From NCBI GenBank assembly GCA_030692765.1, contig JAUYUB010000008.1:1-64000 (forward strand): 64,000 nucleotides of DNA. Reading direction: 5' to 3'. A program made the translations under genes and the position numbers. Under the pieces are notes generated by a model. That model was given only the letters and a program-made list of their open reading frames with translations. It ran no database searches and had not been told where the DNA came from. Below, piece after piece: positions 12,559 to 30,118 of the stretch. Within the stretch, counting starts at the first letter, position 1, and each line of letters starts with the position of its first letter. Origin of the DNA: Sulfuricurvum sp. Its GTDB lineage: Bacteria; Campylobacterota; Campylobacteria; Campylobacterales; Sulfurimonadaceae.

Positions 12559-13263
12559 CTAGTGCTTGGTTGGAGCATCTAACATTGGCTCAAGGCCAAC
12601 TTCTTTTGCCCATGCAGCTGTTAAATCATAAGCTGCAGATGCAGTGTCAAGATTTTTTTGGATAAGATCCATTTTCTTTTTAAACTTTTTCTCAATAGCT
12701 GAGTCAAGTGTAGCAGTTCCGCCTGAAGCCGTATATTTCTTAAGGAATCTATCTTTGATACCTTCTTCAATAGCTGGCTTACTGATCGTACCTAGTGCAC
12801 CAAATAATGCACCAAGCATTGCCATATTTGTAGCAAGTTCAGTTCCTGCTTCATCAATTGCAAACTTAGTAAAGTCACGAGTTAGAACTTTAACATTCAA
12901 ATCAGATAATACTTTTTTATCATGATCAGTCAAAAGATCTGTATCACTGTTAATAATAACAAGACCATTTTCTTTGATACCAGCATAAAAAGGCATTGTG
13001 TATGATTTACCCATAGTAATAACTTGTGGGTGATAAATCATAACGATATCTGGGTAAATTACTTCACCTCTGTCATAAACAGGTACCGTTCCAATTCTTG
13101 CATAACTTTCAGATGGAGCCATACGCTTTTCTGCACCAAAAAATGGATTAGAAACAGCATAATAACCTTCAGTGTCAGCTGCAGTTGCTGCGATGTGTGC
13201 AGCAGTAACTGCACCTTGCCCACCAAGAGCAGGCATTCTTATTTTGATTGAATCTTTTGACAT
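12559..13263 (-). CDS. 2-oxoacid:ferredoxin oxidoreductase gamma subunit (cluster 1)
   Basis: The 234-residue protein carries the gamma-domain signature 'PALGGQGAVTAAHI' at the N-terminus and 'NPFFGAEKRMAPSESYARI', which help form the CoA and TPP site at subunit interfaces. It is the last gene of a five-gene minus-strand cluster coding delta, E, alpha, beta and gamma. Its ATG overlaps the beta stop codon (TAATG). It is paralogous to the gene at 30118-30825. Substrate (pyruvate or 2-oxoglutarate) cannot be assigned from the gamma subunit. Confidence 0.93.
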   Translation of the reverse strand: MSKDSIKIRMPALGGQGAVTAAHIAATAADTEGYYAVSNPFFGAEKRMAPSESYARIGTVPVYDRGEVIYPDIVMIYHPQVITMGKSYTMPFYAGIKENGLVIINSDTDLLTDHDKKVLSDLNVKVLTRDFTKFAIDEAGTELATNMAMLGALFGALGTISKPAIEEGIKDRFLKKYTASGGTATLDSAIEKKFKKKMDLIQKNLDTASAAYDLTAAWAKEVGLEPMLDAPTKH

Positions 13264-14129
13264 TATAAACGCCCCTCTTCTTTCAATTTTGCTAAGAGTT
13301 CTTCTGCTTCTGGTGAAACAAACTTGAACGCTGCAAATCTTTCTTTGTCTTGTTCTTTCATCTCTCTAAGTCCCTCATTGGCATTAAGACCAATTTCAAG
13401 AATACAAGGTGTATAAATGTTAAGGAAAGTAGGTCCAAGGTATCGAGCAACAAAAATTGCTTCTCTAACTGCTTTAGCAACTGCTTTTGGTGCAGAAGCT
13501 GTCATGTTCATAGAGTAATGACAACCAGAAGTAACAGCAAGTTCCCACATTTTAACTTTTTCAAACTTTTTACCAGTAGGTGCCATTTTGAAAACTTGAC
13601 CTTTTGGAGTTGCGCCTGATTCTTGTCCACCAGTATTTGCATAAACTTCGTTATCAAAACAGATAGTCGTGATATTTTCTTGTCTAAAGAACGATTGAAG
13701 TGTATAGTCAAGACCGATATCAACAGTAGCACCGTCACCAGCTAGAACAACAACGTCTTTTTCAATGTCTGGAAATCTCCAGTCTAAAACTCTTTTAATA
13801 CCAGTTGCTACAGCATTTTGGTTACCAAAAAGTGAATGCACAGTGTGAAGTGCGATATGTGGAAACATCAATGATGTACAACCAGTTGAGTTAACGATAA
13901 CCGTATCTTCAGGTTTAGGTAGTGCAGCCAATACATATCTCAATGCAGCAGCTTCTGGACAACCAGCACACAATGAATGCTCTTCTAGCAACTCTTTTGT
14001 TTCTGGAAGTTCTTTAATACCACGTTTGTCTGTAGTGTCAGACCACGTAGCGTTTTCTTCGAGATCAATGATCTCTTTAGGCATAATGTCTCTAAATTCA
14101 GGATTGATTTTATAGATATGTGTTCCCAT
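13263..14129 (-). CDS. 2-oxoacid:ferredoxin oxidoreductase beta (TPP-binding) subunit (cluster 1)
   Basis: The 288-residue catalytic subunit contains the thiamine pyrophosphate motif beginning 'GDGATVDIG' and closing in 'FDNEVYANTGGQ'. Cysteines for a [4Fe-4S] cluster are seen in 'CAGC', 'STGC' and 'YTPC'. With alpha, gamma and delta it reductively carboxylates an acyl-CoA using reduced ferredoxin. The 'ANTGGQESGATP' loop resembles pyruvate synthases more than the classic two-subunit 2-oxoglutarate enzyme, but the five-subunit For and Por enzymes of Hydrogenobacter are both of this kind. Location near sucCD hints at 2-oxoglutarate; this is not proof. Confidence 0.92.
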   Translation of the reverse strand: MGTHIYKINPEFRDIMPKEIIDLEENATWSDTTDKRGIKELPETKELLEEHSLCAGCPEAAALRYVLAALPKPEDTVIVNSTGCTSLMFPHIALHTVHSLFGNQNAVATGIKRVLDWRFPDIEKDVVVLAGDGATVDIGLDYTLQSFFRQENITTICFDNEVYANTGGQESGATPKGQVFKMAPTGKKFEKVKMWELAVTSGCHYSMNMTASAPKAVAKAVREAIFVARYLGPTFLNIYTPCILEIGLNANEGLREMKEQDKERFAAFKFVSPEAEELLAKLKEEGRL

Positions 14130-14130
14130 A

Positions 14131-15333
14131 TTAGGCTCCTTTTCCAGAGTTTAATTTTTCCATAACTTCTCTAAGAATTGCTTCAGCTGGCATACTCATA
14201 CCACCTGCAACTCTTGGTCCACCTACGATTTCAGTATCGCATTTACCATAAAGTGCACGTTTAACATCTTTTTCTAACCAGCCAACAACGTTGAACTCAG
14301 GTACAAATGCAGTTTTAACACCTTTTAATGCTTCAAGAAGCTCTGCTTCAGGGAATGGTCTAATTGTTCTCAATTTAATAACTTTAGACTTAATACCTAA
14401 TTTAGACAATTCTCTGTTTGCTTCTTTTGCTTGATACGATGCTGTACCACAAGCGATGAATGCGATCTCTGCATCTGCATCACCAGTAACATGCACAAGA
14501 CCTTTAAGGTAATGTTTTGCATAAGGAACAGAACGCTCTACTGCTGATCTGATTTCCCACTGCCATGAAGCATGCGCAGCATAAGAGATGTAGTTCGATT
14601 TCATTACGAATGGATCACGTAGGAAACGGCCCGGAGGTGTTTCTGAGTCAATCGGAGGCAATGGTGCTTTGTATGGATCGTATGGGAAAAGTGCGATGTC
14701 ATCCTCAGGAAGCATAACTGACTCTCTCGTGTGAGATACAAAGAATCCATCAACAACAGTAATAATTGGAACGTGAACGTCAGGTTTTTCAGCTACTACG
14801 AACGCTGCAATTGACATGTCAAATAACTCTTGAACGTTTTCAGCATACCAAATCTGACAACCAGTTTCGAGCATGTATGAAACTTCCAAGTTATCCGGCT
14901 GAATAGTAAGTGGTGAATTGATACCACGAGCCATTAGGATAAGTTGACATGGAATTCTTGTACCAGACCACTGAGCAAAGTTCTCCATTGCTCTGAGTGT
15001 TCCCGGTCCTGATGTTGTGGTGATTGTTCTAGCGCCTGCCATTGCACAACCAGCAACTTCAGACATAACACCAAATTCATTTTCCCCTCTAAAGTACACA
15101 CCTACATAACCCTCAGCCCAAAGCTCACCGATAAGGTGTGCTGCTTCTGATTGTGGAGTAATAGGATACGATACAGATGCATCTACTGTACATCTTTTTA
15201 CCGCTTCTTTCAAAACTTCAGAACCAGTCATAAAGTGCTTAGTTCTAGGAGCTTCGAAAAGCATATGGTCTGCTGTAACTAGCGTTTGTCCAGACCAGTT
15301 TTTTGTTTCTGTCATATCACTACGTTTACTCAT
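14131..15333 (-). CDS. 2-oxoacid:ferredoxin oxidoreductase alpha subunit (cluster 1)
   Basis: The 400-residue protein has the pyrimidine-binding domain of the family ('YPITPQSEAAHL' near residue 57, 'GENEFGVMSEVAGCAMAGAR', 'TTTSGPG') followed by a transketolase C-terminal-like domain. It packs on the beta subunit to hold TPP and shape the 2-oxoacid pocket. It is about 45% identical by eye to the cluster 2 alpha subunit. It lies 1 nt from beta and 15 nt from E, in one tight operon. Confidence 0.93.
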   Translation of the reverse strand: MSKRSDMTETKNWSGQTLVTADHMLFEAPRTKHFMTGSEVLKEAVKRCTVDASVSYPITPQSEAAHLIGELWAEGYVGVYFRGENEFGVMSEVAGCAMAGARTITTTSGPGTLRAMENFAQWSGTRIPCQLILMARGINSPLTIQPDNLEVSYMLETGCQIWYAENVQELFDMSIAAFVVAEKPDVHVPIITVVDGFFVSHTRESVMLPEDDIALFPYDPYKAPLPPIDSETPPGRFLRDPFVMKSNYISYAAHASWQWEIRSAVERSVPYAKHYLKGLVHVTGDADAEIAFIACGTASYQAKEANRELSKLGIKSKVIKLRTIRPFPEAELLEALKGVKTAFVPEFNVVGWLEKDVKRALYGKCDTEIVGGPRVAGGMSMPAEAILREVMEKLNSGKGA

Positions 15334-15348
15334 TTTAATCTCCTATTC

Positions 15349-15918
15349 CTATAATTTCAGTTCTGATTTTACTTCTCTAGCTATTTTAATGAACTTTTCA
15401 AGCTCATGAGAGTGCATATCTCTTAATGTAGCCATCGCATCTTCATGACCAGACAAACCACACATTGCAATAGTATAACAATCTGTTTCACAACGTACAA
15501 TTTTCAATGCAACGTTGGCATAATGACAGTGAACACCGATAAAAATCGCCGCTTTGATATTGTTATGCCAAATTGTCAAGTTAGGATGATTTGGGTTGAT
15601 TTCTACTTCAGCATCAATCTTTGGATACTTAGGTCTGTAATCATACATTGGAATCATTTTAGCGTTAAGAACTTCAGACATCTCTTTGATAAGTTTTGCT
15701 TTTTTCTTTGCTTCTTCATTGTAACCATATAATACTTGAGGACCAGGGAAAATAGTTGCATTTTCACTTGTCAACATCACTCTTGCAACTTCTCTCATTG
15801 CAGTTTCTTCATCAACCACTTTTGTCAATAAAAGTGCTTTTCCTTCTGGTGGTGTGATTATACCTTCATACACAGCCGTAGGATACGGTGAATAATACGC
15901 TGGGCCTTGATTTGCCAT
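15349..15918 (-). CDS. Epsilon-type subunit of five-subunit 2-oxoacid:ferredoxin oxidoreductase (cluster 1)
   Basis: The 189-residue protein resembles the extra E subunit known from the five-subunit For and Por enzymes of Hydrogenobacter. It has no cofactor motif I can name. A conserved core shared with the cluster 2 copy includes 'TIFPGPQ', 'MYDYRPKYPKI', 'EINPNHPNLTI', 'IFIGVHCHYAN' and 'TDCYTIA'. The 'HCH' and nearby Cys residues are kept in both copies and might bind a metal. It lacks the roughly 40-residue C-terminal tail of the cluster 2 copy. An AGGAG site precedes the ATG. Confidence 0.8.
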   Translation of the reverse strand: MANQGPAYYSPYPTAVYEGIITPPEGKALLLTKVVDEETAMREVARVMLTSENATIFPGPQVLYGYNEEAKKKAKLIKEMSEVLNAKMIPMYDYRPKYPKIDAEVEINPNHPNLTIWHNNIKAAIFIGVHCHYANVALKIVRCETDCYTIAMCGLSGHEDAMATLRDMHSHELEKFIKIAREVKSELKL

Positions 15919-15975
15919 AAGATCTCCTAATGTTTTTTTTACAGTATAAGTTTGAATTAAATATAATTTATAGAC

Positions 15976-16200
15976 TTATTCTTTACCGTGAACCATTTCC
16001 ATCGTAATACAATTACGACTAAGCATATCGGTACAAACGTACACACATAGTGCACAGCCTTTACATCTATCTTCATCAACCCAAGATGTATTCCCAACTT
16101 TATCGAACATAAGCGTGTTTGCTTCTGGACAATAAAGTGTACACGTGTTGCATTTATACTCAGCACACATGTCTGCATTAACTTTTGCTACATAATACAT
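15976..16200 (-). CDS. Ferredoxin-like delta subunit of 2-oxoacid:ferredoxin oxidoreductase (cluster 1)
   Basis: The 74-residue protein has eight cysteines (12, 17, 20, 24 and 46, 49, 52, 56) arranged for two [4Fe-4S] clusters, and passes electrons between ferredoxin and the catalytic subunits. The ATG at 16200 is chosen because a GGAG motif precedes it and because the cluster 2 copy starts at the same residue; a longer in-frame start at 16245 adds an unrelated tail. The protein is identical to the product of 30841-31065, though the DNA differs at 22 synonymous sites. It is the first gene of the cluster. Confidence 0.93.
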   Translation of the reverse strand: MYYVAKVNADMCAEYKCNTCTLYCPEANTLMFDKVGNTSWVDEDRCKGCALCVYVCTDMLSRNCITMEMVHGKE

Positions 16201-16719: not shown

Positions 16720-18027
16720 TTAGTTGATTTGTTGGTCGTTATCTTTGAATTTTTGGAAGTATTTGCTAACAATCGTTCCAGCTGGCGTCATGTCGATTTT
16801 TGAGAAAATAAGATAATTAATGAGACCGTGGAGGGTTAGAGTAACAATAAGTCCTTCAAAGATACCCACTTTAAATACCAACCCGGCACAGACGGTTGCA
16901 AGCAATACCGCATAAGGTCCATATTCTGCAATGTGCAACAAGCCCAATAGCATTTTGACACCAACAAATAGCATAATAACTGCCAATGCAAAGAAAGGTA
17001 AATAATCTAAGTATTGAGAATTGAGTATAAAGAATGTCATGAGTACACCAATCACTAATACGGACAGTTTTGTGTAAGCACCTGCAAGGCGATTCGTTGA
17101 TGATTTTGCCAAACCATCAAGGCTTGTCATACCGCCAAAGAAACTGGCACCCATATTTGATACCCAGATGGATAATAAGGAATTGTTTGAATTAGATGGA
17201 CGCTGCAATGGATCGATTTTTTCAATTGCCGCATTACCCATCACCTGCTCAATTGCATCAACCACTCCCAACATCAATGAGAATAAGATCGCGTAGATCC
17301 ATAAAGATACAGAATCAAATTGAGGTATAGGCAATGCAAGGGTAAATTTAACATCTTCTACTTCAAGCATCTTTACATTAACAAAGAGTGAGGCCACAAT
17401 ACCAAACACGATCAAAGCAAAGTAAGGTAATGCCGGTTTTGTATCTTTAAATTTTTTAAACAAACCAAGAAAAAGAATGGCTCCAACGACAGAAAGTGAA
17501 ATGACCTGAATACGAGCATCGCTCCAAAACGCTTCATGGGCACCCATACCCACACCAACCGGTAACATCCAAAGAAACGGCAAAAACTTAAGTGCAATTT
17601 TTAAACCAATCCCCGCTAATAACCCTTCAACCAAGTACGATGGAACAGCTTTTAAAAGATAGCGTTGCCAGTTAAATTTCCATATCAATGCTTGAAAACA
17701 TGCCGTCATAAAAATAACAAAGGTCATATTCTCTATTCCGAAGCTTGCAATCCCCACCGCGATAATTGGGGCAGAACCTGCTGCAATTCCGGGAGCTCCT
17801 ATATAGTTACCCGGGCGAAAAATCGCAAATAAAAATGCGATGAAGGCAGCAAAAGCAACGGTTGCAAGTCCTATTTGAATAGGATAATCTCCCATCATGG
17901 CGATACCAACCGATAATGGGATTGCCATGGTTGCGGTAATGACACCGGCTTGGAGATCACGTCCGGCATATTTTGCAATAAATGCTGCAGAACCGTGCTC
18001 GTTTTGCTTTGTATCTGTGTTGTTCAT
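16720..18027 (-). CDS. SulP-family anion transporter without STAS domain
   Basis: The 435-residue integral membrane protein has the SulP/SLC26 transport core with about 12-14 hydrophobic segments. Early motifs are 'AGVITATMAIPLSVGIAM' and 'IGAPGIAAG'; 'NMGASFFGGM' lies in the second half. The usual cytoplasmic STAS domain is missing, so it is shorter than typical SulP proteins. Members move sulfate, bicarbonate or carboxylates. The divergent neighbour is the dab inorganic-carbon operon, so bicarbonate is a reasonable guess for substrate; sulfate cannot be excluded. Confidence 0.88.
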   Translation of the reverse strand: MNNTDTKQNEHGSAAFIAKYAGRDLQAGVITATMAIPLSVGIAMMGDYPIQIGLATVAFAAFIAFLFAIFRPGNYIGAPGIAAGSAPIIAVGIASFGIENMTFVIFMTACFQALIWKFNWQRYLLKAVPSYLVEGLLAGIGLKIALKFLPFLWMLPVGVGMGAHEAFWSDARIQVISLSVVGAILFLGLFKKFKDTKPALPYFALIVFGIVASLFVNVKMLEVEDVKFTLALPIPQFDSVSLWIYAILFSLMLGVVDAIEQVMGNAAIEKIDPLQRPSNSNNSLLSIWVSNMGASFFGGMTSLDGLAKSSTNRLAGAYTKLSVLVIGVLMTFFILNSQYLDYLPFFALAVIMLFVGVKMLLGLLHIAEYGPYAVLLATVCAGLVFKVGIFEGLIVTLTLHGLINYLIFSKIDMTPAGTIVSKYFQKFKDNDQQIN

Positions 18028-18374: not shown

Positions 18375-19985
18375 GTGGAAAAAATCATATTGCTTATTCC
18401 AAGCATACCAATTGTGATAGCGTTTCTTCTTTTTTTCGTGAGAAAAAAAGAGCTTGTACCAAAAGTCAGTATTATGCTCTCAAGCATGCTTGCCTTATTG
18501 GCATTATCTGGAACGTATTACGTTATAACGAATGATACGCCCATTGTTGGTTTTGGCGGATTGTTAATCTATAATCAACTTTCGGCTATTTTGGTTCCCT
18601 ATGTGGCTATTTTGGGTCTAGTGATTCGTAAGTACGCCACTAAATATATGTGGGATGAAGCAGGTTACCGAAGATTTTTTATTCTTTTAAACTTTATCTT
18701 TTCATCCATATATTTATTGGTTATGAGTAATAATCTTATTGTTCTTGCTCTTGCTTGGCAGCTTTTGAGTATCAGTCTATACCTTTTGGTTTCATTCAAT
18801 GTGGGTTCCAATACAGCGGTAAGGCATGCTAAATGGGTCATGTTTATACATAAGGGTGCAGATTTAATCTTTATCTTTGCGATTGTGCTTGTCTATGACA
18901 CATTTGGAAGCTTTGATCTTGCGATTCTTAGTGAAAAATGGCTGGCTATGTCACATAATCTTGTTGAAAGTCCAATGATTTTTGCAATCGGATTACTTTT
19001 CTTGATAGCAGCGATGATGAAATCCGCGATCATGCCTTTTCATATTTGGCTGCCTTACACCTCTGAAGCTCCTACCCCTGTATCGGCTGTTATGCATGCC
19101 GGTGTTGTCAATGTTGGAGGAATTTTGCTTAATAAGCTAGCCTACTTGTTGTTATTGACACCTGCTGTGCTGAATATCGCATTTGTAGTAGGTCTTGTCA
19201 CTGCTATTGTTGCCTCCGTCATTATGCTCACTGTCTCAGATATCAAACGTTCGCTTGGGTATTCAACCGTAGGACAAATGGGTTACATGATCATGGAAGT
19301 TGGTCTGGGTGCATTTTCACTTGCAATCTATCATCTGATTGTGCACGGTATTTTCAAAGCAACGCTCTTTTTAGAGGCAGGTGGTCTTATCAGAATGGCC
19401 AGACATGAATCCAATCTTCCAAAGCGTCTTTCGTATGAACTTTTTTGGGAAGAAAAAATTAAAAGAAAGACAAAAAAAGCCTTTAACTATTTGGCTTTTT
19501 TTACCATTTTGCCAATTCTTGTTTTCGTAGGGGTCAAAGTGGTTTTAACGGACGACTTCTTTGAGTTTAATGCCTCAATTATTATCTTGGCATTTGCTTG
19601 GCTCACGGGGACTCAGCTCTTTATGTCATTTTTTAAAGTTTCTAAAGCTGACTCCTTTAAAATGATATTTGCTTTGGTGAGTTCATTTATCATTATTTTA
19701 TTCACCTATGAGTTTGTAGGATTGACAATGGAACATTTTTTATATGGCAACGATGCAATGTTGTTTTATAAAGCTGCAACCTTAAATGTCGACATAATAA
19801 TGACACTTATAATGTTGGCTGTAATTATGATTGTTGGATGGCTGTTTATGTATAGACAGCACTTTGTAGATGTTCCGAAAGTTGGAAACAGACCAGGTGC
19901 ATTTAAATGGTTATTGTACAGTTTCTTGGCAAAAGAGGGTTATTTTTTCAGTCTAATAAAATTTTTTAAAAAGGATAATGCATGA
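18375..19985 (+). CDS. dabB: DabB: NuoL/MrpA-like membrane subunit of the inorganic-carbon uptake complex
   Basis: The 536-residue membrane protein belongs to the proton-translocating antiporter-like family (NuoL/NuoN/MrpA). It has about 13-14 helices and the conserved central motif 'MKSAIMPFHIWLPYTSEAPTPVSAVMHAG', here spread over residues about 215-243. In Dab systems this subunit couples a cation gradient to DabA, which hydrates CO2 vectorially to bicarbonate. The start is GTG, preceded by GGAGGGG. The stop overlaps the ATG of the next gene (ATGA), so the three genes form one operon. Confidence 0.9.
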   Translation: MEKIILLIPSIPIVIAFLLFFVRKKELVPKVSIMLSSMLALLALSGTYYVITNDTPIVGFGGLLIYNQLSAILVPYVAILGLVIRKYATKYMWDEAGYRRFFILLNFIFSSIYLLVMSNNLIVLALAWQLLSISLYLLVSFNVGSNTAVRHAKWVMFIHKGADLIFIFAIVLVYDTFGSFDLAILSEKWLAMSHNLVESPMIFAIGLLFLIAAMMKSAIMPFHIWLPYTSEAPTPVSAVMHAGVVNVGGILLNKLAYLLLLTPAVLNIAFVVGLVTAIVASVIMLTVSDIKRSLGYSTVGQMGYMIMEVGLGAFSLAIYHLIVHGIFKATLFLEAGGLIRMARHESNLPKRLSYELFWEEKIKRKTKKAFNYLAFFTILPILVFVGVKVVLTDDFFEFNASIIILAFAWLTGTQLFMSFFKVSKADSFKMIFALVSSFIIILFTYEFVGLTMEHFLYGNDAMLFYKAATLNVDIIMTLIMLAVIMIVGWLFMYRQHFVDVPKVGNRPGAFKWLLYSFLAKEGYFFSLIKFFKKDNA

Positions 19986-20710
19986 TGATATATGTTGTAT
20001 TATTGTTCTTGGCCGGTGGCCTACCGTACTACATCCTTTTGGAAAATAACAAATATCTTAACAGCAAACAGATTTTTTTGTTGAGTGGATTTTTATTGAT
20101 ATGTGCTATTTTCCTCTCATTGTCACTTCCTGATGATCATCCTGATTTACTGGTAATGATTTCATTCGCGAGTGCAATTTTTTCCATCTATAAAGCAACA
20201 AAAACAACGAGTTTTTATAAATTAGGCTATTACCTTATATTTGTCAATGCACCGTTTTTTATCCTTTTTCAGGATCGAGGGATAATGTACAGTATATCAC
20301 TTCTTGTCTCATTGACCGGTCTGTACCTAATCGCAAAGTTTTATGAAAAAAATTATGGAAGTGCAAATTACGGTAATATCACCGGGATAACACTTGTCAC
20401 TCCATGTGTTGGCACCTATTTAGCTTTTTATTTGATTGCCTTGGCTCTTTACCCGCCATTTCCTAACTCCTTGTTTTTCTTGAGTTATATCTTTAAAAGT
20501 CAGCACGATCTTCTTTCGTATGTCGTAGTAACGACACTGTTTTTCGGAAACTTTTTTCTTGCTATGGGAGTTATGAAAAAAACATTGTTTGGCAGAGCAA
20601 ATCCAAATATACACTATGTTCATATGACTACAAAAGAAAAGATAATTCATTTTATCGTCCTGATTGTACTTATTGTATTAAGTTTTTTCGGGCTTAAGGA
20701 GACACTGTGA
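19982..20710 (+). CDS. Membrane protein of the dab operon, unknown role
   Basis: The 242-residue product has about seven or eight hydrophobic segments and few charged loops. I do not recognise a defined family. It overlaps dabB by 4 nt and dabA by 1 to 4 nt, so its translation is coupled to both. Two-gene dabB-dabA systems are the described form, so this may be an accessory membrane subunit of a three-gene variant. Two ATGs (19982 and 19985) are possible starts. Confidence 0.7.
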   Translation: MMIYVVLLFLAGGLPYYILLENNKYLNSKQIFLLSGFLLICAIFLSLSLPDDHPDLLVMISFASAIFSIYKATKTTSFYKLGYYLIFVNAPFFILFQDRGIMYSISLLVSLTGLYLIAKFYEKNYGSANYGNITGITLVTPCVGTYLAFYLIALALYPPFPNSLFFLSYIFKSQHDLLSYVVVTTLFFGNFFLAMGVMKKTLFGRANPNIHYVHMTTKEKIIHFIVLIVLIVLSFFGLKETL

Positions 20711-23583
20711 TGAGTATTATTGAAAAGTTAAATTCCGTTAAGGATACAGTGCCGCATTATTGGCCCATTGGCTCATTCATTCATCATAATCCACTCAAAG
20801 GATTTGAGGATCTTCATTTTAAAGATGGATTGGCAAAAGCCAAAAGCATCTTTGGTGGCAAAGTGTATATGGATTCATCCTATTATATGAATTTGTATAA
20901 AGAAGGCAAGATTCATGATTCAGTGTTAGAAAGTAATATAAAAAAAGTACTTTCTGAAAAAGGTTTTGATATACCATGGGAGTTTGCCAAAAAATTTCTT
21001 ATGGAAGTGAGTCCTAAGTGGAGTGGTCTGAGAATTCAACTGCTTTCCAAAAAAGAAAAAATTGACAATGCGCTTTATGCATACTTGGAAAATGACTCAA
21101 TCTATCATGATAAACAAGAGTGGCTGGATAAACTGACCAGACATATGACCCTGTATGAGATCAATGATGCACTTTTTGGCGGCGATGATAAAGAGAGCGT
21201 TGAGAAAAATATTGTTGAATTTATTTCCCGTTTTTTAGATGAAGATCAAACCACCATGCGTATGCCAAACAGAGAACTTGGCATGTTTGAAGCATTCCAA
21301 CTTTTTGAAAACTTTACCTATGAAAGAGATGCTGAAAGTTTTGTCCAGGAGTCGTTTAAAAAGCTTCATGTAAAAGATGCTGAAGCTTATCTTTTGACAC
21401 ACTTACTCAAACTTCACGGTTGGGCTGGCTTTATCAAGTATCGTTCGGAAGACAAAGACTATATTGCGCAAAGACAGCACCCATCTACGCTCATTGAATA
21501 TTTGGCCATAAGGCTCTATTATGAATTGCGTGCCGTTAAAAATCAAAAATTAAGAAATTTTGATCTTTTTCAAGAATATGCAAATATTCATCTTGACGAT
21601 GTAATATTGAAACTTCTTGCACATAAACATATGCTGTTTGGTCCGGCATTGGACGCACTTGAATCCAATGAAGAAACGAGCGTTGTTTTATCTAACCATA
21701 TTAGCGGTGAGCTAAATTTGGATGCTTTGCAAATACAACACTCTAGTGAAGTATTGCAAAGCGCTCTATCTCTAACAGAGTTGGCTGAGATCATTAAAAG
21801 ACTAAGAGAAGAGGAGGGCTATATCTGGCTTAAATCTCTTGAGGATAGCTATATACATTCCTATGTCGATAAGATCATCAATGTGGAAAATAAAGCTGAA
21901 GAACATGTAACTGCTTCTGCAACATTTTGTCTTGATGTTAGGTCTGAAGTAATCAGACGATCCATTGAAAAAACAGGTCCTTATCAGACGTATGGCGCGG
22001 GTGGATTTTTAGGTATTCCCATCGCATTTGTTGAATTTGATAAAGCGCACGAGCTTTTTTTGTCACCGGCAATTGTAAAACCTCAAAATGTTGTATTTGA
22101 GATACCTGTTGAATCGCATGATGAGTACAGTTCAAAAACAGGGATGAACAAAACGACCAAAAAAGTTTTAAGTGATTTAAAAAACAATCCCTATACTCCC
22201 TATATTATGGTTGAAGCCATTGGATGGATTTTTGGGATTAATCTTTTTGGGAAAACATTTTTGCCTCAAAAGACAAATAAACTCTTGTCTAAGCTTAAGC
22301 CATATAAGCCAAAAACAAGGTATACACTGGATAAGCTCTCTTCTAATGAGATTGAGTTTTATGTTAGAAAGCTTCATACGAAAATCATTCATTCGGTGTT
22401 AGCGTATAGTTCTACACAAGACTATTCGGATGAAGAGATAGAATCTGTTAGAAATCATCTTTTATTTGAGAATGATTTAAAAGTTTCAATACCAGATGAG
22501 ATCATAGAGAAATTGATAACGGCTCATAAAATAACACCGCAAGATTATGAGTATCAAAAAAAGAAACTGGCAATGGTTGGTTTTACACTGGAAGAAAAAG
22601 TAGCCTATCTGCAAAAATATTTAAAAATGATAGGTCAAGTCAGTGATTTTCCTGAATTTATAACGATTATTGGTCATGGTAGCTTATCCGATAACAATCC
22701 GTTTGAATCGGCTCTTGACTGTGGCGCATGCGGTGGAAATGTAAGCTTGCCAAATACACGGACACTGTGTATGATAGCCAATACGAAAGATGTTAGAGAA
22801 AAGATTAAAGAACAAGGAATTTTCATACCTGAGAGTACGAAGTTTATACCTGGTCTTCATATAACGACAACCGATGAAATCAAATTTTACGATACAGATA
22901 TTTTGACTGAAGGGCAGATGCAAAAATTTTCAAAAGTAAAAGATGATTTTAACAATGCATCCATACAATCAAGATTAGAACGGTGCAAATCTCTGCCATA
23001 CACGAATACACACAAAGATATTATGATCAAATCTATGGACTGGTCGGAAATAAGACCGGAATGGGGATTGGCAAAAAACATGGGAGTTTTTGCAGGGCCC
23101 AGAAATTCAACTAAGCATTTAGTGTTAAATAACAGATTTTTTATGCACTCCTATGATTGGAAAATTGATAATGACAATGCAGATATTCTCACGGCTATAT
23201 TTAATGGACCGTTGATCGTAGGTGAGTGGATTAACTTAGAGCATTATTTCTCTACGGTTGATAATCATATTTATGGAGCTGGTTCAAAGGTATATCATAA
23301 TATAGTTTCAAAAATAGGAGTTTTTAGCGGTAATTACGGTGACTTGAAAATAGGCCTTCCAATTCAGTCGGTCTATTTAGAGGGAGAACCGTATCATGAG
23401 CCGGTAAGACTTCTGTCGTTTGTGGAAGCACCGTTGGAGATTGTAGGTAAAGCGGTTGAAAATTCAATAGCAAAACCTTTTATCCTCAATGAATGGATTA
23501 GACCGGTAATCATTGACAGAGAGGCTAAAAAAGTCTACTCGTATGAAAACGGTGAATTCATTGTAATAAAAGAGATCGCATAG
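20710..23583 (+). CDS. dabA: DabA: DUF2309 zinc protein of the inorganic-carbon uptake complex
   Basis: The 957-residue soluble or peripheral protein matches DUF2309/DabA, which resembles a beta-carbonic anhydrase and works only with its membrane partner. The expected zinc-site residues are present: Cys and Asp in 'FCLDVRSE' (about 407 and 409), His in 'IIGHGSLSDNNP' (about 656) and Cys in 'LDCGACGG' (about 671). The N-terminal 'HYWPIGSFIHHNPLKG' is also a family hallmark. ATG at 20710 follows AAGGAGA and overlaps the previous stop (TGATG); a GTG at 20707 is the alternative. It supplies bicarbonate or CO2 for carbon fixation. Confidence 0.95.
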   Translation: MSIIEKLNSVKDTVPHYWPIGSFIHHNPLKGFEDLHFKDGLAKAKSIFGGKVYMDSSYYMNLYKEGKIHDSVLESNIKKVLSEKGFDIPWEFAKKFLMEVSPKWSGLRIQLLSKKEKIDNALYAYLENDSIYHDKQEWLDKLTRHMTLYEINDALFGGDDKESVEKNIVEFISRFLDEDQTTMRMPNRELGMFEAFQLFENFTYERDAESFVQESFKKLHVKDAEAYLLTHLLKLHGWAGFIKYRSEDKDYIAQRQHPSTLIEYLAIRLYYELRAVKNQKLRNFDLFQEYANIHLDDVILKLLAHKHMLFGPALDALESNEETSVVLSNHISGELNLDALQIQHSSEVLQSALSLTELAEIIKRLREEEGYIWLKSLEDSYIHSYVDKIINVENKAEEHVTASATFCLDVRSEVIRRSIEKTGPYQTYGAGGFLGIPIAFVEFDKAHELFLSPAIVKPQNVVFEIPVESHDEYSSKTGMNKTTKKVLSDLKNNPYTPYIMVEAIGWIFGINLFGKTFLPQKTNKLLSKLKPYKPKTRYTLDKLSSNEIEFYVRKLHTKIIHSVLAYSSTQDYSDEEIESVRNHLLFENDLKVSIPDEIIEKLITAHKITPQDYEYQKKKLAMVGFTLEEKVAYLQKYLKMIGQVSDFPEFITIIGHGSLSDNNPFESALDCGACGGNVSLPNTRTLCMIANTKDVREKIKEQGIFIPESTKFIPGLHITTTDEIKFYDTDILTEGQMQKFSKVKDDFNNASIQSRLERCKSLPYTNTHKDIMIKSMDWSEIRPEWGLAKNMGVFAGPRNSTKHLVLNNRFFMHSYDWKIDNDNADILTAIFNGPLIVGEWINLEHYFSTVDNHIYGAGSKVYHNIVSKIGVFSGNYGDLKIGLPIQSVYLEGEPYHEPVRLLSFVEAPLEIVGKAVENSIAKPFILNEWIRPVIIDREAKKVYSYENGEFIVIKEIA

Positions 23584-23602
23584 TAAATATTAAAGGATAT
23601 GA

Positions 23603-23923
23603 ATGTATACAATAGAAATTGAAAAAATGTGTAGTTGTGTTCAAAAAAGTGGCTTAGATCAAGTTATGACATTTGATGAAAGACAGGATATGATTAATAA
23701 GGCACGTGTTTTAGAGTGTCGTATGAATCAAGAGTTTTGTATGACACACTTTTTTGAAGCGGTAGATTACGGCGATAAAATTGTTATACACGCCAGTCCA
23801 AGACCTGCTGACGATGAAGATGATGACCATATCGAAGATGCCAGAGCACTTGTTCGAAGATCTGTTGTCACCATTGGTTTTGATGCCAGTGAAGCACCTC
23901 CGAAAGGCGCTGGAGGAAACTAA
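23603..23923 (+). CDS. Small Cys-containing protein of the dab operon (copy 1)
   Basis: The 106-residue product is not a family I recognise. It shares with the next gene the pattern 'MYTI' start, 'CSC' (residues 10-12), 'KSG', and 'EFCMTHFF'. The C-terminus is acidic ('DDEDDDH') then ends in 'PPKGAGGN'. An AAGGATATGA site precedes the ATG, 20 nt after dabA, so it belongs to the same transcript. The paired cysteines suggest a metal or redox role, which is inference only. Confidence 0.75.
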   Translation: MYTIEIEKMCSCVQKSGLDQVMTFDERQDMINKARVLECRMNQEFCMTHFFEAVDYGDKIVIHASPRPADDEDDDHIEDARALVRRSVVTIGFDASEAPPKGAGGN

Positions 23924-23924
23924 T

Positions 23925-24215
23925 ATGTATACAGTAAAAATGGAGCACGAATGTGCATGTTTTAAAAAAAGTGAATATAAAAGTGAAAAGTCATTTGACA
24001 ATCAGCAAGATGCGTATAATTATGCAAATATCTTAGTTGAATTCATGACGGAAGATTTTTGCACAACACACCTCTTTTTTGTGCATAAAGAAAGTGAGAA
24101 TGAATTTTTGATCAGAGTGGTCGAAAATCCGAATAAAGCAGGTTCTTGCAGTACGGGTAGTTGTGGTCCTGACGACAGTGCCAGCAGTTGTGGCACTAGC
24201 TGCGGTTGTGATTAA
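23925..24215 (+). CDS. Small Cys-rich protein of the dab operon (copy 2)
   Basis: The 96-residue protein is a tandem paralogue of the previous one: 'MYTV', 'CAC' (residues 10-12), 'KSE', and 'DFCTTHLFF'. It differs by a C-terminal tail with six Cys in Gly/Ser-rich context ('CSTGSCG', 'SSCGTSCGCD'), resembling metal-binding tails. The start at 23925 follows GGAGG closely and matches the paralogue's start; a longer frame opening at 23781 lies inside copy 1 and is not believed. Its stop overlaps the stop of the convergent gene. Confidence 0.75.
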   Translation: MYTVKMEHECACFKKSEYKSEKSFDNQQDAYNYANILVEFMTEDFCTTHLFFVHKESENEFLIRVVENPNKAGSCSTGSCGPDDSASSCGTSCGCD

Positions 24216-24771: not shown

Positions 24772-25221
24772 ATGACGAATGGAAAAGTATTATCATTGTA
24801 TATGACGATGCCGGATATGATGCGTTCTGGTCATCGTATGAAGTGTGATGATTTTGATTGTGACTCTAGTGGTATTGTAGGTAGCAGAGACTATGATAAT
24901 GGAACAGATCAGTTACTTGTATTGGTTTCAAAAAAGAGTTATGACATAATCGAAGAGGCAGAACTCGTTCTTGAAAAAGGTGTCTTGATGGAAAATATTT
25001 ATGTAGATATTGACCTTTATCATCTTAAGCCGGGATCCATCATTGAGATAGGGGAAACGCTCTTCGAAGTTGTTGGACCATGTGAAGATTATCGTTACCT
25101 CTATGCATTTGCACCTGAGCTTCCTGAACTGTTACAAGGACAGCGTGGTCTTTTTGTGTCTCCTGTAGAATACGGAGGAATTGCCGTTGGAGATGATGTT
25201 AAGGTGATTGAAGAGGCTTAA
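24772..25221 (+). CDS. MOSC-like domain protein
   Basis: The 149-residue product follows the MOSC beta-barrel pattern: 'DQLLVLVSKKSYD', 'LMENIYVDIDLYHLKPGSII', 'IGETLFEVVGPCEDYRYLY', and a terminal 'VGDDVKVIEE'. MOSC domains bind molybdenum cofactor or transfer sulfur, often through one cysteine; Cys at 'GPC' is the candidate. It stands alone rather than fused to a sulfurase. An AAGGGATAACAG site precedes the ATG. It is probably cotranscribed with the next gene, which starts 1 nt after its stop. Confidence 0.65.
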   Translation: MTNGKVLSLYMTMPDMMRSGHRMKCDDFDCDSSGIVGSRDYDNGTDQLLVLVSKKSYDIIEEAELVLEKGVLMENIYVDIDLYHLKPGSIIEIGETLFEVVGPCEDYRYLYAFAPELPELLQGQRGLFVSPVEYGGIAVGDDVKVIEEA

Positions 25222-25222
25222 T

Positions 25223-25690
25223 ATGAAAAAAATAGGTATTGGCATAGATTACAGTAACATCTGTAAAGACTATAATACATCCTATCTCGATAGAGACAAT
25301 ACAGATCCGGCAACCTCGAAATGCATGAAAGCAGTCCTTGCTTGGAGCAAAGAATTTCTATCTGAACTTGCAGAAAACTTTGAATATAAAATATATAATT
25401 TTAACTCTTCTGCTTTAGCAGCAATAGACGATATTGCATCGAAAAGATTTCTTTTTTACTCTTTAGAGAAAGAGATAATATTACAAAATTATCTTATGAC
25501 AAAAGAGAAGCTGAAATATGATTCATTAGCTGTTTGGGAGTTAGAGAACGATGACAGTGTACTTATAAAAAATGATGCAGATGGGAGTGGAATTTATTTC
25601 TATTTTACTGAAAATTCCAGTGTGCATCAGTGGATAATAAATGCATTAAAGGACTTTTCTTTGGATGAAGTAGACTTCCATACAAAGTAA
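25223..25690 (+). CDS. Conserved-looking protein of unknown function
   Basis: The 155-residue product has no motif I recognise. It begins 'MKKIGIGIDYSNICKDYNT', has an alternating alpha/beta pattern and is Asp/Asn-rich in the middle ('NDDSVLIKNDADGSGIYFYF'). An AGAGG motif at the end of the upstream MOSC-like gene serves as ribosome-binding site for ATG 25223. Context suggests a functional link with that gene. Confidence 0.6.
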   Translation: MKKIGIGIDYSNICKDYNTSYLDRDNTDPATSKCMKAVLAWSKEFLSELAENFEYKIYNFNSSALAAIDDIASKRFLFYSLEKEIILQNYLMTKEKLKYDSLAVWELENDDSVLIKNDADGSGIYFYFTENSSVHQWIINALKDFSLDEVDFHTK

Positions 25691-25800
25691 AAATATTTCT
25701 TTTAAACTTTTATTTATTATTTGTTTTTTTTTGATAGAATAAGTATGAAGATGTGATAGTGATATCTAGTCTAACTGTATTTACGTTAGGAGAAATTGTC

Positions 25801-26223
25801 ATGGATAATATAATTAGAAAAAAACTGGAAGAAATCGTAGCCCTTATGAATGATCCAGAGATAACTGTTGTTGAAAAAGAGCTGAAGGAGAAGCTGGAGG
25901 GTATTCTAGCGCTTCTGAATAATCCACAAGAAATTACAATAGGAAAACAAGAAGTTAAAGAAAAACTTGAAACTGTTGTAGCGCTTGTAAGCAAAGCTAT
26001 GGTTAATCCAGATATAGATATTGAGTACTGCATACCAGAAGTGTCAACTACCTCTATAACTGATCCATACATCTTGGTGAAATATTCTGAAGATAAATAC
26101 GTAGAGCGGAAGATCCGCTTAACCGGTGTATATTTACAAAATTCAGCTGAAATGATTGCTAAACTTGTGAACTTCTCTATTGAGCAGTTTATAGAAGAGA
26201 TTGACTCAGTTCAGATGGGCTAA
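25801..26223 (+). CDS. Small protein with N-terminal internal repeats, paralogue of 32524-32829
   Basis: The 140-residue product starts at 25801 after TAGGAGA. It contains three copies of a 22-25-residue unit beginning 'KKLEEIVALMN', 'KEKLEGILALLN' and 'KEKLETVVALV'; the third leads into 'VNPDIDIEYCIPEV' and a C-terminal domain ending 'FIEEIDSVQMG'. That third copy and C-terminal domain align along their length with the gene at 32524-32829, which has one unit only. The function is unknown; the repeats look helical. Confidence 0.65.
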   Translation: MDNIIRKKLEEIVALMNDPEITVVEKELKEKLEGILALLNNPQEITIGKQEVKEKLETVVALVSKAMVNPDIDIEYCIPEVSTTSITDPYILVKYSEDKYVERKIRLTGVYLQNSAEMIAKLVNFSIEQFIEEIDSVQMG

Positions 26224-26258: not shown

Positions 26259-26654
26259 TTAGTCGTCTTCCTCATCATCGATGCCAAGGTTATCTATAAA
26301 CTGTTCCGCCAATCTATCCGCTTTTGTATAAAACTTATCAGCAATCTCTGCTACAAAGAGCCCATCGATCGTCTCTTTAAAGAGTTTAAGCCAACGTTCA
26401 AAATGTTCACGAGAAAGCGGCCCCATGAATGCATGCGGTGGAAAAGGATCTCCTCCATAACCACGCTTACCTGTCATCATAAGATCCCAGAATTTATACA
26501 AAGTGTTTAGATGTTCATGCCATTTGCCATTATTTAAATCATCTCCTAAGGACTTGATGAAAATGGGTGCCAGGATGTCATCTTTAAGTACTGTGCCATA
26601 AAACTCACGTACCATTTGTTCTATAGTGCTTCTGTCTACTGAATCATAAAGCAT
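26259..26654 (-). CDS. Group III truncated haemoglobin (second copy)
   Basis: The 131-residue protein has the group III globin residues: Tyr19 (B10) in 'EFYG', His48 (E7) in 'KWHEH', proximal His74 (F8) in 'FPPHAFMGPL' and Trp88 (G8) in 'HFERWLKLF'. The ATG at 26654 follows TAGGAGATTCC; an earlier ATG at 26669 lacks such a site. The C-terminus is acidic ('DDEEDD'). It is divergent from the second oxidoreductase cluster, mirroring the globin that follows the first. Confidence 0.9.
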   Translation of the reverse strand: MLYDSVDRSTIEQMVREFYGTVLKDDILAPIFIKSLGDDLNNGKWHEHLNTLYKFWDLMMTGKRGYGGDPFPPHAFMGPLSREHFERWLKLFKETIDGLFVAEIADKFYTKADRLAEQFIDNLGIDDEEDD

Positions 26655-26796
26655 GGAATCTCCTACCATTAATTATGAGAGTATAGCTAAATTATTTAAA
26701 TCCTTAAGCCGCTCTATGCATAGGTTTAGTAGGAATAAAACGATACATTTATGTAAATTACATCCATTTAATATTGATTTTTCATCTGCACGTAAT

Positions 26797-27217: not shown

Positions 27218-27931
27218 ATGACGAAACGAGTAACGCAAGGTCCGGCAGGTTATATGCCACAGTCGGCACCGTCCATGGGAGTCGAGCTTGCACCGAAAGG
27301 TCAAGGTTTGCTTTATGGAAATGTTGTAACTGAAGAAGAAGCGATGAGAGATGCTGCAATAGCATTACTTACAATGGCTAATCCAACAATCTTCCCTGGT
27401 CCACAAATCCTTTGGGATTGGAAAGATGATGTTGCAGAAAAAGCTGCTGCTCTATTAGAACTTGCATCTGAGATTCCAAACTGTAAAATCATTCCGATGC
27501 CTGATTATCGTCCTAAATATCCAAAAATTGATGTTAAGGCTGAGATCAACCCTAACCATCCAAACCTTACAATCTTAGATAACAAAATCAAAGCTTGTAT
27601 TTTTATCGGTGTACACTGTCACTACGCAAATCTTACTCTTAGAATGATCCGTGCTGGTACTGATTGTTATACAATCGCACTATGTGCTTATATGGGACAC
27701 GAAGAAGCTATGGCTTCTATCAATGACCTACATGCTAGCGATCTTAGAAAATTCAAAGAGATCATTATTGAAGAAAGAAAGAAATTAGGAATTGAGTGGA
27801 CTACTACTGAACCACCTAGAAACCCATCTTTACCAAAAGAAGACAACAGTACGTTGTCACCAGTTGATTACGGTGAGTACAGAAGTCTCATCATGACTAA
27901 AAAAGGTGAGCACGTTACTGACGTTGAGTAA
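27218..27931 (+). CDS. Epsilon-type subunit of five-subunit 2-oxoacid:ferredoxin oxidoreductase (cluster 2)
   Basis: The 237-residue protein is the paralogue of 15349-15918, sharing 'TIFPGPQI', 'PDYRPKYPKI', 'EINPNHPNLTI' and 'IFIGVHCHYANL'. It adds a C-terminal tail of about 40 residues rich in Pro and charged residues that the other copy lacks. AAGGAGTC precedes the ATG. It is the first gene of the second cluster, in the order E, alpha, beta, gamma, delta. The biochemical role of this subunit is not settled even in Hydrogenobacter. Confidence 0.8.
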   Translation: MTKRVTQGPAGYMPQSAPSMGVELAPKGQGLLYGNVVTEEEAMRDAAIALLTMANPTIFPGPQILWDWKDDVAEKAAALLELASEIPNCKIIPMPDYRPKYPKIDVKAEINPNHPNLTILDNKIKACIFIGVHCHYANLTLRMIRAGTDCYTIALCAYMGHEEAMASINDLHASDLRKFKEIIIEERKKLGIEWTTTEPPRNPSLPKEDNSTLSPVDYGEYRSLIMTKKGEHVTDVE

Positions 27932-28014
27932 TTTTAACGTTAGAGTTAATGATAGACTAGAATTTGTAAAGACACTAGCAGACATAAGCTGCAGTTGAAT
28001 AAAGGAGATAGTAA

Positions 28015-29196
28015 ATGAGTTACGAAAGACCAAAATTAGTAAAAACATTTGTAGATATTAACTACATGTTAAAAGAGGCTCCACGTAAGCAGCACTTTAT
28101 TACAGGTGCTCAAGCGATGGCAGAAGCTGTTAAGAGAGCAAACGTTGATATGGCGATTGCTTATCCAATTACGCCACAATCAGAAGTTATGCACCTTGTT
28201 GCTGATGCTTTTCACCAAGGGCACGTTAAAGAGTATTATAGAGCTGAAGAAGAGCTTGGTACAATGTCAGCAATCGCTGGTGCTTCAAGAGCGGGTGTCC
28301 GTTTGTTTACAGCAACATCAGGACCAGGACTTCTTAGAGGTCTAGAAGCAATCGTATCTTGGTCAGGGCACCGTGTTCCAGCGGTACTTGGTATCTTGAC
28401 TCGTGTTGTTAATGCACCGTTGTCAATTCAACCGGATAATATCGAAATGGCATACATGATGCATTGTGGTGCTGTTATGTTGCATGCTGAAAATCAGCAA
28501 GATACTTTTGATATGACATTGGCTGCATTTGCTATTGCAGAAAAAGTTGATGTTTATATCCCAGTAGCTGTTGCAACAGAAGGTTTCTTCGTAACACACG
28601 CTAAAGGTTATGTTAACATGACTTCAGATGAGTTAGCATTAACTCCATTTGATGCAATCGCTGCACCGGTTCCTGCTATGGATAATGAAACTCCACCAGC
28701 AAGAATTCAAAGAGATGCGCCGGTACAAAAGTCAAACTTCATGTCTTACTTGATTCATGCTGTATGGCAACAAGAAATCTGGGATTGTAATAAGCGTGCT
28801 ATGAAGTATGTTTATGAGTATCTTGGTGGACCGATCGAAGTTCAAAACCCTGAAGCTGATGTATTCGTTGTTGCTTCTGGTTGTGCTGCTGCACAAGCTC
28901 GTGAAGCTCATAGAACATCACGAGAGTTGGGCTTGAGTGTTGGTTTGATCAAAGTTAGAGCAATTAGACCATTCCCGGTTGACGAAATTAGAGCAACCGT
29001 TAAGAATGCTAAGGCACTTATCGTACCTGAGCATAACATTATTGGTTGGTTGGCTCAAGAAGTTAAAGCAGCTATCCCTAATGGCGGTATCGTTGTAGGT
29101 GGTCCAAGAGTATACGGTGGTATGACACTTCCTGTTGAGTTGATCATGAAAGAAATCCATACTGCTCTAGGTTTAGAGTTCAATCTAAAATTATAA
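28015..29196 (+). CDS. 2-oxoacid:ferredoxin oxidoreductase alpha subunit (cluster 2)
   Basis: The 393-residue protein has 'AYPITPQSEVMHL' near residue 54, 'AEEELGTMSAIAGASRAG' and 'TATSGPG', the pyrimidine-domain features of the family, and a C-terminal transketolase-like domain. The acid pair 'AEEELG' replaces 'GENEFG' of cluster 1, near the active site; this could reflect a different 2-oxoacid. AAGGAGA precedes the ATG. It is separated from E by 83 bp, the largest gap in the operon. Confidence 0.93.
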   Translation: MSYERPKLVKTFVDINYMLKEAPRKQHFITGAQAMAEAVKRANVDMAIAYPITPQSEVMHLVADAFHQGHVKEYYRAEEELGTMSAIAGASRAGVRLFTATSGPGLLRGLEAIVSWSGHRVPAVLGILTRVVNAPLSIQPDNIEMAYMMHCGAVMLHAENQQDTFDMTLAAFAIAEKVDVYIPVAVATEGFFVTHAKGYVNMTSDELALTPFDAIAAPVPAMDNETPPARIQRDAPVQKSNFMSYLIHAVWQQEIWDCNKRAMKYVYEYLGGPIEVQNPEADVFVVASGCAAAQAREAHRTSRELGLSVGLIKVRAIRPFPVDEIRATVKNAKALIVPEHNIIGWLAQEVKAAIPNGGIVVGGPRVYGGMTLPVELIMKEIHTALGLEFNLKL

Positions 29197-29209
29197 TAAA
29201 GGGGATAAA

Positions 29210-30118
29210 ATGAGTTTAAAATATGTAACTCCGGTAGCAATGTTTAAAAAATATTTACCAAAAGATTATGTGGAATTAGTTGACTTTGGTCCATTCGGAA
29301 AGACTCAAGATGAGGCTGGCCCAGGAAACATGGGACAGTTCAAAGAGTTGATGGAAGAGCATCCAATGTGTTCTGGTTGTTGGATGGCATATTACATCAG
29401 ATTGATTTTTGCTTCACTTCCATGCCCTGAAGAGACTGTAACATTGGGTACAGCTGGATGTGGTCGTTTGGCTATTTCTCAAGCGGCTGTTCCATTTATC
29501 TATGGTAACTACGGTGACCAAAATGCTATGGCATCTGGTTTGTCTCGTGCATTCCGTTTGCGTTTCCCTGATAAACAAAAAGACGTTATCACAATCGCTG
29601 GTGATGGCGGAACTATGGATATCGGTTTCTCTATGACTATGCACTCATGGATCCGTGGTGAAAGATTCACAACGATCATGCTTGACAACGAAGTTTATGG
29701 AAATACTGGTGGTCAAGAGTCAGGTATGTCTCCTAAGGGTGCTGTATTGAAAATGGCTCCAGGTGGTAAACAGTTTAACAAAATGCCTGCAACTGACTTA
29801 GCAAAAGCTGCTGGTTGTGTGTATATCGTTAGAATGTCACCTACAAACATCAAAAAAGCTGCAAAAATTATCCGTAGAGCAATCTTTGTTGCTAGAGAAG
29901 TTGGACCAACGTTTATTCATGCTTACACTTCATGTAACATTGAGTATTCAATTCCTACTGAAGAAGTATTTGCAGATGCAAAATTGAGAGAGAAAGATCG
30001 CTTCCAATTTGAAGAGTATATGACTGATGCAGCAAAAGAAGTTATCGATCGTATCGAAGCTGAAGAAAAAGCAGCACACAGAGCTAAAAAAGGTATCGTA
30101 GAAGAGGAGGTTAACTAA
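29210..30118 (+). CDS. 2-oxoacid:ferredoxin oxidoreductase beta (TPP-binding) subunit (cluster 2)
   Basis: The 302-residue catalytic subunit has the TPP motif 'GDGGTMDIG' followed by 'LDNEVYGNTGGQ', and cysteines in 'CSGC', 'TAGC' and 'TSC' for a [4Fe-4S] cluster. Compared with cluster 1 the 'CAGCPEAAALR' segment reads 'CSGCWMAYYIR', so the two enzymes are clearly different. One cluster is probably pyruvate synthase and the other 2-oxoglutarate synthase; I cannot say which from sequence alone. Confidence 0.92.
   Translation: MSLKYVTPVAMFKKYLPKDYVELVDFGPFGKTQDEAGPGNMGQFKELMEEHPMCSGCWMAYYIRLIFASLPCPEETVTLGTAGCGRLAISQAAVPFIYGNYGDQNAMASGLSRAFRLRFPDKQKDVITIAGDGGTMDIGFSMTMHSWIRGERFTTIMLDNEVYGNTGGQESGMSPKGAVLKMAPGGKQFNKMPATDLAKAAGCVYIVRMSPTNIKKAAKIIRRAIFVAREVGPTFIHAYTSCNIEYSIPTEEVFADAKLREKDRFQFEEYMTDAAKEVIDRIEAEEKAAHRAKKGIVEEEVN

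Follow-up and report, generated by a model that had tools for sequence, protein, structure and literature searches.

A three-subunit DAB operon between two five-subunit 2-oxoacid:ferredoxin oxidoreductase operons in Sulfuricurvum

Two DAB complexes of Halothiobacillus neapolitanus are the closest described relatives of the carbon-uptake operon considered here. DAB2 (Protein Data Bank (PDB) entry 9rd0) consists of DabA and DabB without a third subunit. DAB1 (hneap_0907-0909) is encoded by dabB, a small membrane gene and dabA in a carboxysome/CbbOQ operon with PII, and it has been described as a three-subunit complex (PMC13144422, section 4). The small gene, an unnamed interstitial member of the mrpA family, rescues carbonic anhydrase (CA)-free E. 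coli when expressed with dabAB1 (PMC7714395), and the same three-gene order is also listed in PMC4633670. Five-subunit 2-oxoglutarate:ferredoxin and pyruvate:ferredoxin oxidoreductases (OOR and POR), a type claimed to be O2-tolerant, are described from Sulfurimonas pluma, Sulfurovum AR and the Aquificales (PMC10066037). We analyzed a 64,000-nucleotide stretch of a Sulfuricurvum sp. genome (GenBank GCA_030692765.1, contig JAUYUB010000008.1, positions 1 to 64,000; hereafter the window), in which a dab operon lies between operons for two enzymes of this five-subunit type. The source genome belongs to the Campylobacterota, and its DabA is 96% identical to that of the nearest named relative, a Sulfuricurvum metagenome genome.

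The operon runs on the forward strand and opens with dabB (18375-19985, GTG start; PF00361, E 6.7e-43), which encodes a NuoL-like proton-conducting subunit. It is followed by the gene for a third membrane subunit, called X here (19982-20710; no Pfam match, NuoM-type profile and fold), by dabA (20707-23583; PF10070, E 3.4e-208), encoding the beta-CA-like vectorial carbonic anhydrase subunit, and by genes for two small cysteine proteins, C1 and C2. Neighboring genes overlap by 4 bases at both the dabB/X and the X/dabA junction, which suggests translational coupling. The first-pass annotation had seen in the region a Dab operon that includes an overlapping third gene for a membrane protein and is followed by two small cysteine proteins, and the open reading frames, Pfam matches and overlaps agree with it. 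DabB is homologous to DabB2 (9rd0_B, E 3.1e-39) and keeps the motif H320/H324/K328, whose roles in the proton path are set out in PMC13144422, section 11. DabA residues C408, D410, R412, H657 and C672 align with C351, D353, R355, H524 and C539 of DabA2 (9rd0_A), the zinc ligands and Asp-Arg dyad of that protein (PMC13144422). An invariant DabA glutamate, E503, falls near the expected place of the finger residue Glu444, in a region that the pairwise alignment with DabA2 stops short of. Judged by the aligned zinc ligands and dyad and by the DabB motif, the DAB core looks functional.

Unlike DAB2, the window operon has a third subunit gene, and this gene is widely conserved. We counted neighborhoods at 80 named dab loci (L020-L099), leaving 7 further mapped loci out. 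X lies directly 5' of dabA in 76 of them, that is, at every locus where this position can be read; at the other four the available DNA starts at dabA or no more than 211 bases from it. Its carriers include Campylobacterota, Aquificota, Acidithiobacillus, Guyparkeria and others, and with such conservation upstream of dabA, X is not a chance open reading frame. In two Aquificaceae loci (L061 and L065) dabB and X are fused into single genes of 783 and 786 codons, in which the X profile covers residues 564-783 and 562-781. The first-pass annotation had presented the third gene as an extension of a two-gene Dab system and had suggested looking for the three-gene order elsewhere. The order is found at all 76 readable loci, and DAB1 already has three subunits (PMC13144422; PMC7714395), so the idea of an extension falls away; X is an old subunit and not a later addition. 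Guyparkeria (L064, L071), a relative of Halothiobacillus, has X as well, and Hneap_0908 is likened to it by gene order and description. We conclude that the window operon is another member of the three-subunit DAB1 kind. It differs from DAB1 in its surroundings, carrying C1 and C2 and lying among carboxylases of the reductive tricarboxylic acid (rTCA) cycle instead of in a carboxysome/CbbOQ operon with PII.

The nature of X was approached by profile and by structure prediction. PF00361 matched none of 29 X proteins chosen from the loci. A profile of these 29 sequences matched, among PDB sequences, NuoM of complex I (8e9g_M, residues 292-492, E 7.9e-7; 4he8_M, 242-446, E 2e-6) and MrpD (E 1.7e-4). 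An AlphaFold2 model of X, with a predicted local distance difference test score (pLDDT) of 92.4 and a predicted TM-score (pTM) of 0.90, matches E. coli NuoM 225-487 over its whole length (Z 20.0, root-mean-square deviation 3.0, 238 residues), and its best Foldseek match has an E-value of 1.6e-5. Both the profile and the predicted fold identify X as the second half of a NuoM-type complex I antiporter subunit. It holds this half alone and does not contain both half-channels of a full antiporter subunit. In a distant and therefore tentative alignment with Nqo13, the histidine of the SHMG motif is replaced by Asn89 and the glutamate of GEF by Phe163. DabB2 has no bundle equivalent to transmembrane helices (TM) 9-13 of NuoL, and the DabA finger completes the half-channel (PMC13144422, section 11). 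Because the predicted fold of the TM9-13 bundle is present in X while the proton-carrying residues are perhaps absent, X is most likely a scaffold or coupling subunit packed against DabB, which is our preferred guess. Against this picture stands a profile comparison of X with DabB, for which hhalign gave a nonsignificant E-value of 0.12, with only a brief segment in the register that would be expected.

On either side of the dab operon lies a five-subunit oxidoreductase operon, each with all five subunits present. The OOR operon (12559-16200, reverse strand; PF01558, PF02775, PF01855, PF02552 and Fer4) encodes the gamma (12559-13263), beta (13263-14129), alpha (14131-15333) and CO_dh (15349-15918) subunits and a 4Fe-4S ferredoxin (15976-16200). 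The POR operon (27218-31065, forward strand; PF02552, PF01855, PF02775, PF01558 and Fer4) is ordered CO_dh subunit, alpha, beta, gamma, ferredoxin. We assigned the two specificities from gene context and PMC10066037. Together these operons belong to an island of about 11.0-35.9 kb whose G+C content is 36.2% (11044-35900), against 39.9% to its left and 39.8% to its right; we placed its right end near 35.9 kb from gene content and G+C, and this is not a mapped junction. The first-pass annotation had suspected a larger carbon-uptake module. It was right that the locus exceeds the operon, but the added parts are the two flanking five-subunit rTCA carboxylases and not the SulP permease it had named.

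We asked how widespread this linkage is by dividing the 80 loci according to their DabA. In 41 of them (type A) DabA is at least 47% identical to that of the window; the other 39 form type B. Genes for five-subunit oxidoreductases occur in 31 of the 41 type-A loci, and both enzymes in 19 of those 31. Eight of the ten remaining type-A loci have a short flank on at least one side, and of the 22 loci whose two flanks each measure at least 7 kb, 20 carry the oxidoreductase genes. Random placement would give such adjacency in about 1.8% of genomes. The Sulfurovum AR locus (L028) is among the dab loci compared. Type-B loci are accompanied by CbbO (17 of 39), CbbQ (16) and PII (22), and by oxidoreductase genes in three cases, all Aquificaceae.

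Whole-genome samples point the same way. Among 199 genomes of the order, dabA occurs in four and a strong PF02552 match (E < 1e-40) in three, which are exactly the type-A carriers; among 397 genomes of the phylum, the figures are four and two, again exactly the type-A carriers. The window genome is part of both samples, which overlap. Weaker PF02552 matches, left uncounted in 10 of the 13 matching genomes of the order and in 23 of the 25 of the phylum, all have E-values above 1e-4, and most of them lie in frames roughly 500-615 codons long. Of 136 Aquificota genomes, searched for PF02552 at a cut-off of E 1e-15, 76 have PF02552 and 52 have dabA, and every one of the 52 belongs to the 76 (Fisher p 2.9e-19, uncorrected for descent). 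At least 26 of the 52 carry the two within 12 kb on the same contig, a lower bound. One Aquificota operon (L130, genome G569) runs POR, p102-like gene, CobW, glutamate-synthase-like gene, dabB, short X, Sbt_1, PII, dabA, OOR. There (L130:7577-13893), and also in L129, the bicarbonate transporter Sbt_1 and PII stand between short X and dabA, inside the POR-OOR cluster.

On its left, the island is preceded on the forward strand by the TCA-cycle genes icd (monomeric isocitrate dehydrogenase), mdh, fumC, sucC and sucD (3972-10795; Pfam) and by a gene for an 83-amino-acid heavy-metal-binding-like protein (10792-11043, forward strand) that is 42% identical to a gene between sucD and oorD in another genome (G136). 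Three same-genus genomes without dab (L131, L133 and L135) also have mdh-fumC-sucC-sucD and a small metal-binding-like gene, with ordinary oor genes coming next. In the window it is the island that comes after this small gene, at the place where those genomes have four-subunit oorDABC, and no ordinary oor genes occur within the window. In the window lineage the island has taken the place of oorDABC. Four same-genus genomes have two ordinary oxidoreductase alpha subunits each. The source genome has the two five-subunit alphas and two that are built differently (615+338 and 564+286 residues); two further island genomes (G348 and G473) have the two five-subunit alphas only. The pair of 615 and 338 residues, on contig C5 of the source genome (L124:1472-4337), is a KorAB-like two-subunit 2-oxoacid oxidoreductase; five-subunit and two-subunit types likewise share a genome in Hydrogenobacter (PMC10066037).

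We searched 14 genomes, which are not independent of one another, for beta-CA (PF00484), the one class covered by the search. Beta-CA is absent from five of the six island-bearing Campylobacterota (G000, G348, G107, G472 and G473), and one or two copies are present in each of the seven genomes without type-A dab. Because a CA in the cytoplasm would cancel the accumulation of bicarbonate (PMC10880623, section 11; PMC8552792), this pattern fits an active DAB.

To follow the history of the island, we built trees of DabA, OORA and PORA from 34, 24 and 19 chosen rows, respectively. In each, the type-A Campylobacterota form one clade (100/100 each), apart from the nearest Aquificota rows. The trees agree with a shared history of dab, OOR and POR at the phylum level, and the pattern agrees with the Aquificales origin of the five-subunit enzymes put forward in PMC10066037.

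Taken together, these findings suggest that the pump and the fixation enzymes were acquired together and work together. We propose that a DAB1-type complex, in company with an island of O2-tolerant OOR and POR, probably sustains rTCA carbon fixation at low CO2 and higher O2. DabA, a zinc enzyme resembling beta-CA, would hydrate CO2 only while protons, driven by the membrane potential, flow through DabB, and bicarbonate would therefore build up in the cell; we infer this direction of transport. X, a degenerate NuoM-like second half, would pack against DabB, and C1, C2 and a CobW protein may handle metal for DabA. The dab operon would travel with the five-subunit oxidoreductases, and DAB would supply the bicarbonate otherwise made by cytoplasmic beta-CA. 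The CO2 for POR and OOR would be re-formed from bicarbonate or would enter by diffusion. A bolder form of the proposal, which we put forward tentatively and think somewhat short of an even chance, is that the island is a mobile rTCA CO2-concentrating cassette. In it, a three-subunit vectorial CA driven by proton motive force, with a half-antiporter as third subunit, would have been co-selected with O2-tolerant five-subunit POR and OOR, moved between Aquificota and Campylobacterota, and, in one lineage at least, taken over the site of oorDABC behind sucCD, with loss of the short-circuiting cytoplasmic beta-CA.

Several observations weigh against the main proposal. POR and OOR use CO2 and not bicarbonate (PMC10880623, table 1); a CO2-to-bicarbonate pump is therefore of use to them only where CO2 is formed again, and any benefit that they draw from bicarbonate accumulation is one that we infer. 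The linkage has exceptions, too. Two type-A loci with full flanks, both from Hydrogenobaculum (L055 and L059), have no oxidoreductase genes nearby, and each holds an X-dabA pair (6801-10417 in L055) with no dabB beside it. Among the matches listed for the 52 Aquificota dab genomes, four have PF02552 far off on the dab contig and 22 have none on that contig, and a further 24 Aquificota genomes have PF02552 without dab. Two island genomes (G107 and G196) retain ordinary POR/OOR besides the five-subunit enzymes. As for carbonic anhydrase, the type-A Aquificota genome G470 has one PF00484 match (E 1.3e-23), type-A G196 has one beta-CA, and alpha or gamma CA may occur in island genomes, the beta class alone having been searched. 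The beta-CA gene of G196 lies directly 5' of the dabB of its second, type-B dab operon (L126:2192-4616). Finally, the branching within the Campylobacterota differs among the DabA, OORA and PORA trees.

The strongest rival to a working partnership is passive linkage: one Aquificota-derived block would have been transferred once and kept uncoupled, with DAB meeting an anaplerotic demand for bicarbonate in place of the lost CA. The single type-A Campylobacterota clade in all three trees speaks for such a transfer, and both the missing beta-CA of most island genomes examined and the example of Firmicutes MpsAB, which takes the place of CA where there is no fixation pathway (PMC8552792), speak for DAB as a CA substitute. 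Yet the adjacency has been kept though OOR and POR vary widely in order and strand around dab (eight patterns counted, some from partial loci), and it is common across the Aquificota too. The type-B dab genes of organisms using the Calvin-Benson-Bassham cycle are also tied to local carboxylase helpers, CbbO and CbbQ. On balance, we consider passive linkage unlikely, though it deserves to be taken seriously, and prefer functional coupling of DAB with the five-subunit enzymes.

The small proteins that follow dabA have a narrower distribution than X. C1 (23603-23923) and C2 (23925-24215), both on the forward strand and without a Pfam match, are paralogues, as the first-pass annotation had said (BLASTP E 1e-13, 41% over 51 residues). 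C2, which has a Cys-rich tail, is listed as an open reading frame from a TTG at 23781; the ATG at 23925 is its likely start and gives 96 amino acids. Residues C10, C12, C46 and H49 are invariant in C1 and throughout an alignment of 30 chosen family members, and from this conservation a metal site is plausible. The model of C1 is weak (pLDDT 69.7, pTM 0.47), and Foldseek found no match to it at E 0.001 or better. At least one family member lies 3' of dabA in 29 of the 34 Campylobacterota type-A loci. Three of the other five are uninformative, with fewer than 300 bases downstream (L029 and L038) or an end inside dabA (L077); at L027 and L043 C1/C2 was not seen despite enough downstream sequence. 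None of the 7 Aquificota type-A loci and none of the 39 type-B loci has a family member. The source genome has four more members, near nitrogenase-like, helicase, chemotaxis and other genes, and because they lie at such unrelated places we rejected C1/C2 as dab-specific. One of the four (contig C13, L100:4342-4554) lies just 3' of nitrogenase-like genes, as read by eye from the translations. The first-pass placement of C1 and C2 in the module is thus sound for the paralogous pair 3' of dabA, but the association is confined to Campylobacterota and the genome holds paralogues elsewhere.

A permease gene of the SulP family (16720-18027, reverse strand) lies on the other side of dabB. It matches PF00916 (Sulfate_transp, E 5.1e-21) and not the STAS model, which bears out its first-pass description as a STAS-less SulP divergent from dabB; no solved SulP in the PDB matched it at E 0.001. 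The same divergent arrangement occurs in the closest relative (L020), the only one of the 80 named loci beyond the window in which SulP is linked, and the other 79 have no SulP in the available sequence. With linkage in 1 of 80 loci, SulP is not a conserved member, and we rejected it as part of a carbon-uptake module. The first-pass reading of a single enlarged module of DabABX, SulP and two small cysteine proteins, to which the adjacency of the genes, the usual place of C1/C2 in Campylobacterota and the divergent SulP lend some color, is very improbable in view of the 79 loci without SulP, the lack of C1/C2 in Aquificota type-A and type-B loci and the four paralogues elsewhere.

Other genes of the island recur at related loci. 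A CobW/COG0523 GTPase, a candidate metal chaperone (11482-12453, reverse strand; PF02492, E 1.8e-42), is found in 26 of the 41 type-A loci. Between the dab and POR operons lie genes for a MOSC-domain protein (24772-25221, forward; Pfam), p160 (25208-25690, forward), a conserved p102-like protein (25753-26223, forward) and a bacterial globin (26259-26669, reverse; Pfam), all with relatives in other dab islands. An FKBP/trigger-factor-like chaperone and a leucine-rich-repeat protein (33032-34948, forward) are also recurrent island genes. Two hemerythrin-like small proteins, recognized by eye from their translations, are encoded at the right end of the island (35043-35444, forward; 36350-36754, reverse), and together with the globin they could possibly serve in oxygen buffering. 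Further right on the reverse strand are genes for an 867-amino-acid protein with AAA_2, second AAA and Peptidase_M41 domains (36764-39367) and an Eco57I/MmeI-like restriction-modification protein (45644-48727). The window contains no tRNA gene. A scan found 39 promoter-like sites (shuffle mean 28.4, standard deviation 5.2) and 4 terminator-like sites (3.8 in shuffles) and did not inform the operon borders.

That transporters of dissolved inorganic carbon (DIC) can be co-located with rTCA genes was noted briefly in the DIC toolkit survey of Scott et al. 2024 (PMC10880623, section 7); in its general form the idea thus predates this analysis. In the parts of that survey compared here, which do not include its figure and supplement, we found no mention of the five-subunit enzymes, the oorDABC replacement or the third subunit. 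The main text of PMC10066037 contains no occurrence of DUF2309, inorganic carbon or bicarbonate, and we found no remark there on dab beside OOR. In the open-access literature, figures aside, we did not find the link between dab and the five-subunit island. Added here are the linkage counts, the island of O2-tolerant five-subunit enzymes, the replacement of oorDABC, the beta-CA pattern and the predicted half-antiporter identity of X.

PMC10880623, section 14, raises the open question of whether autotrophs using the rTCA cycle possess a CO2-concentrating mechanism and what it would serve. The locus described here makes that question testable. It supplies a set of genes that distinguishes close relatives within one genus by being present or absent. 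Island carriers are predicted to grow with less CO2 and more O2, and added cytoplasmic carbonic anhydrase should harm them. The third, unnamed subunit of DAB1-type complexes also gains a concrete candidate identity. If the cassette proposal is true, the island would be a carboxysome-free counterpart of the CO2-concentrating mechanism of Rubisco.

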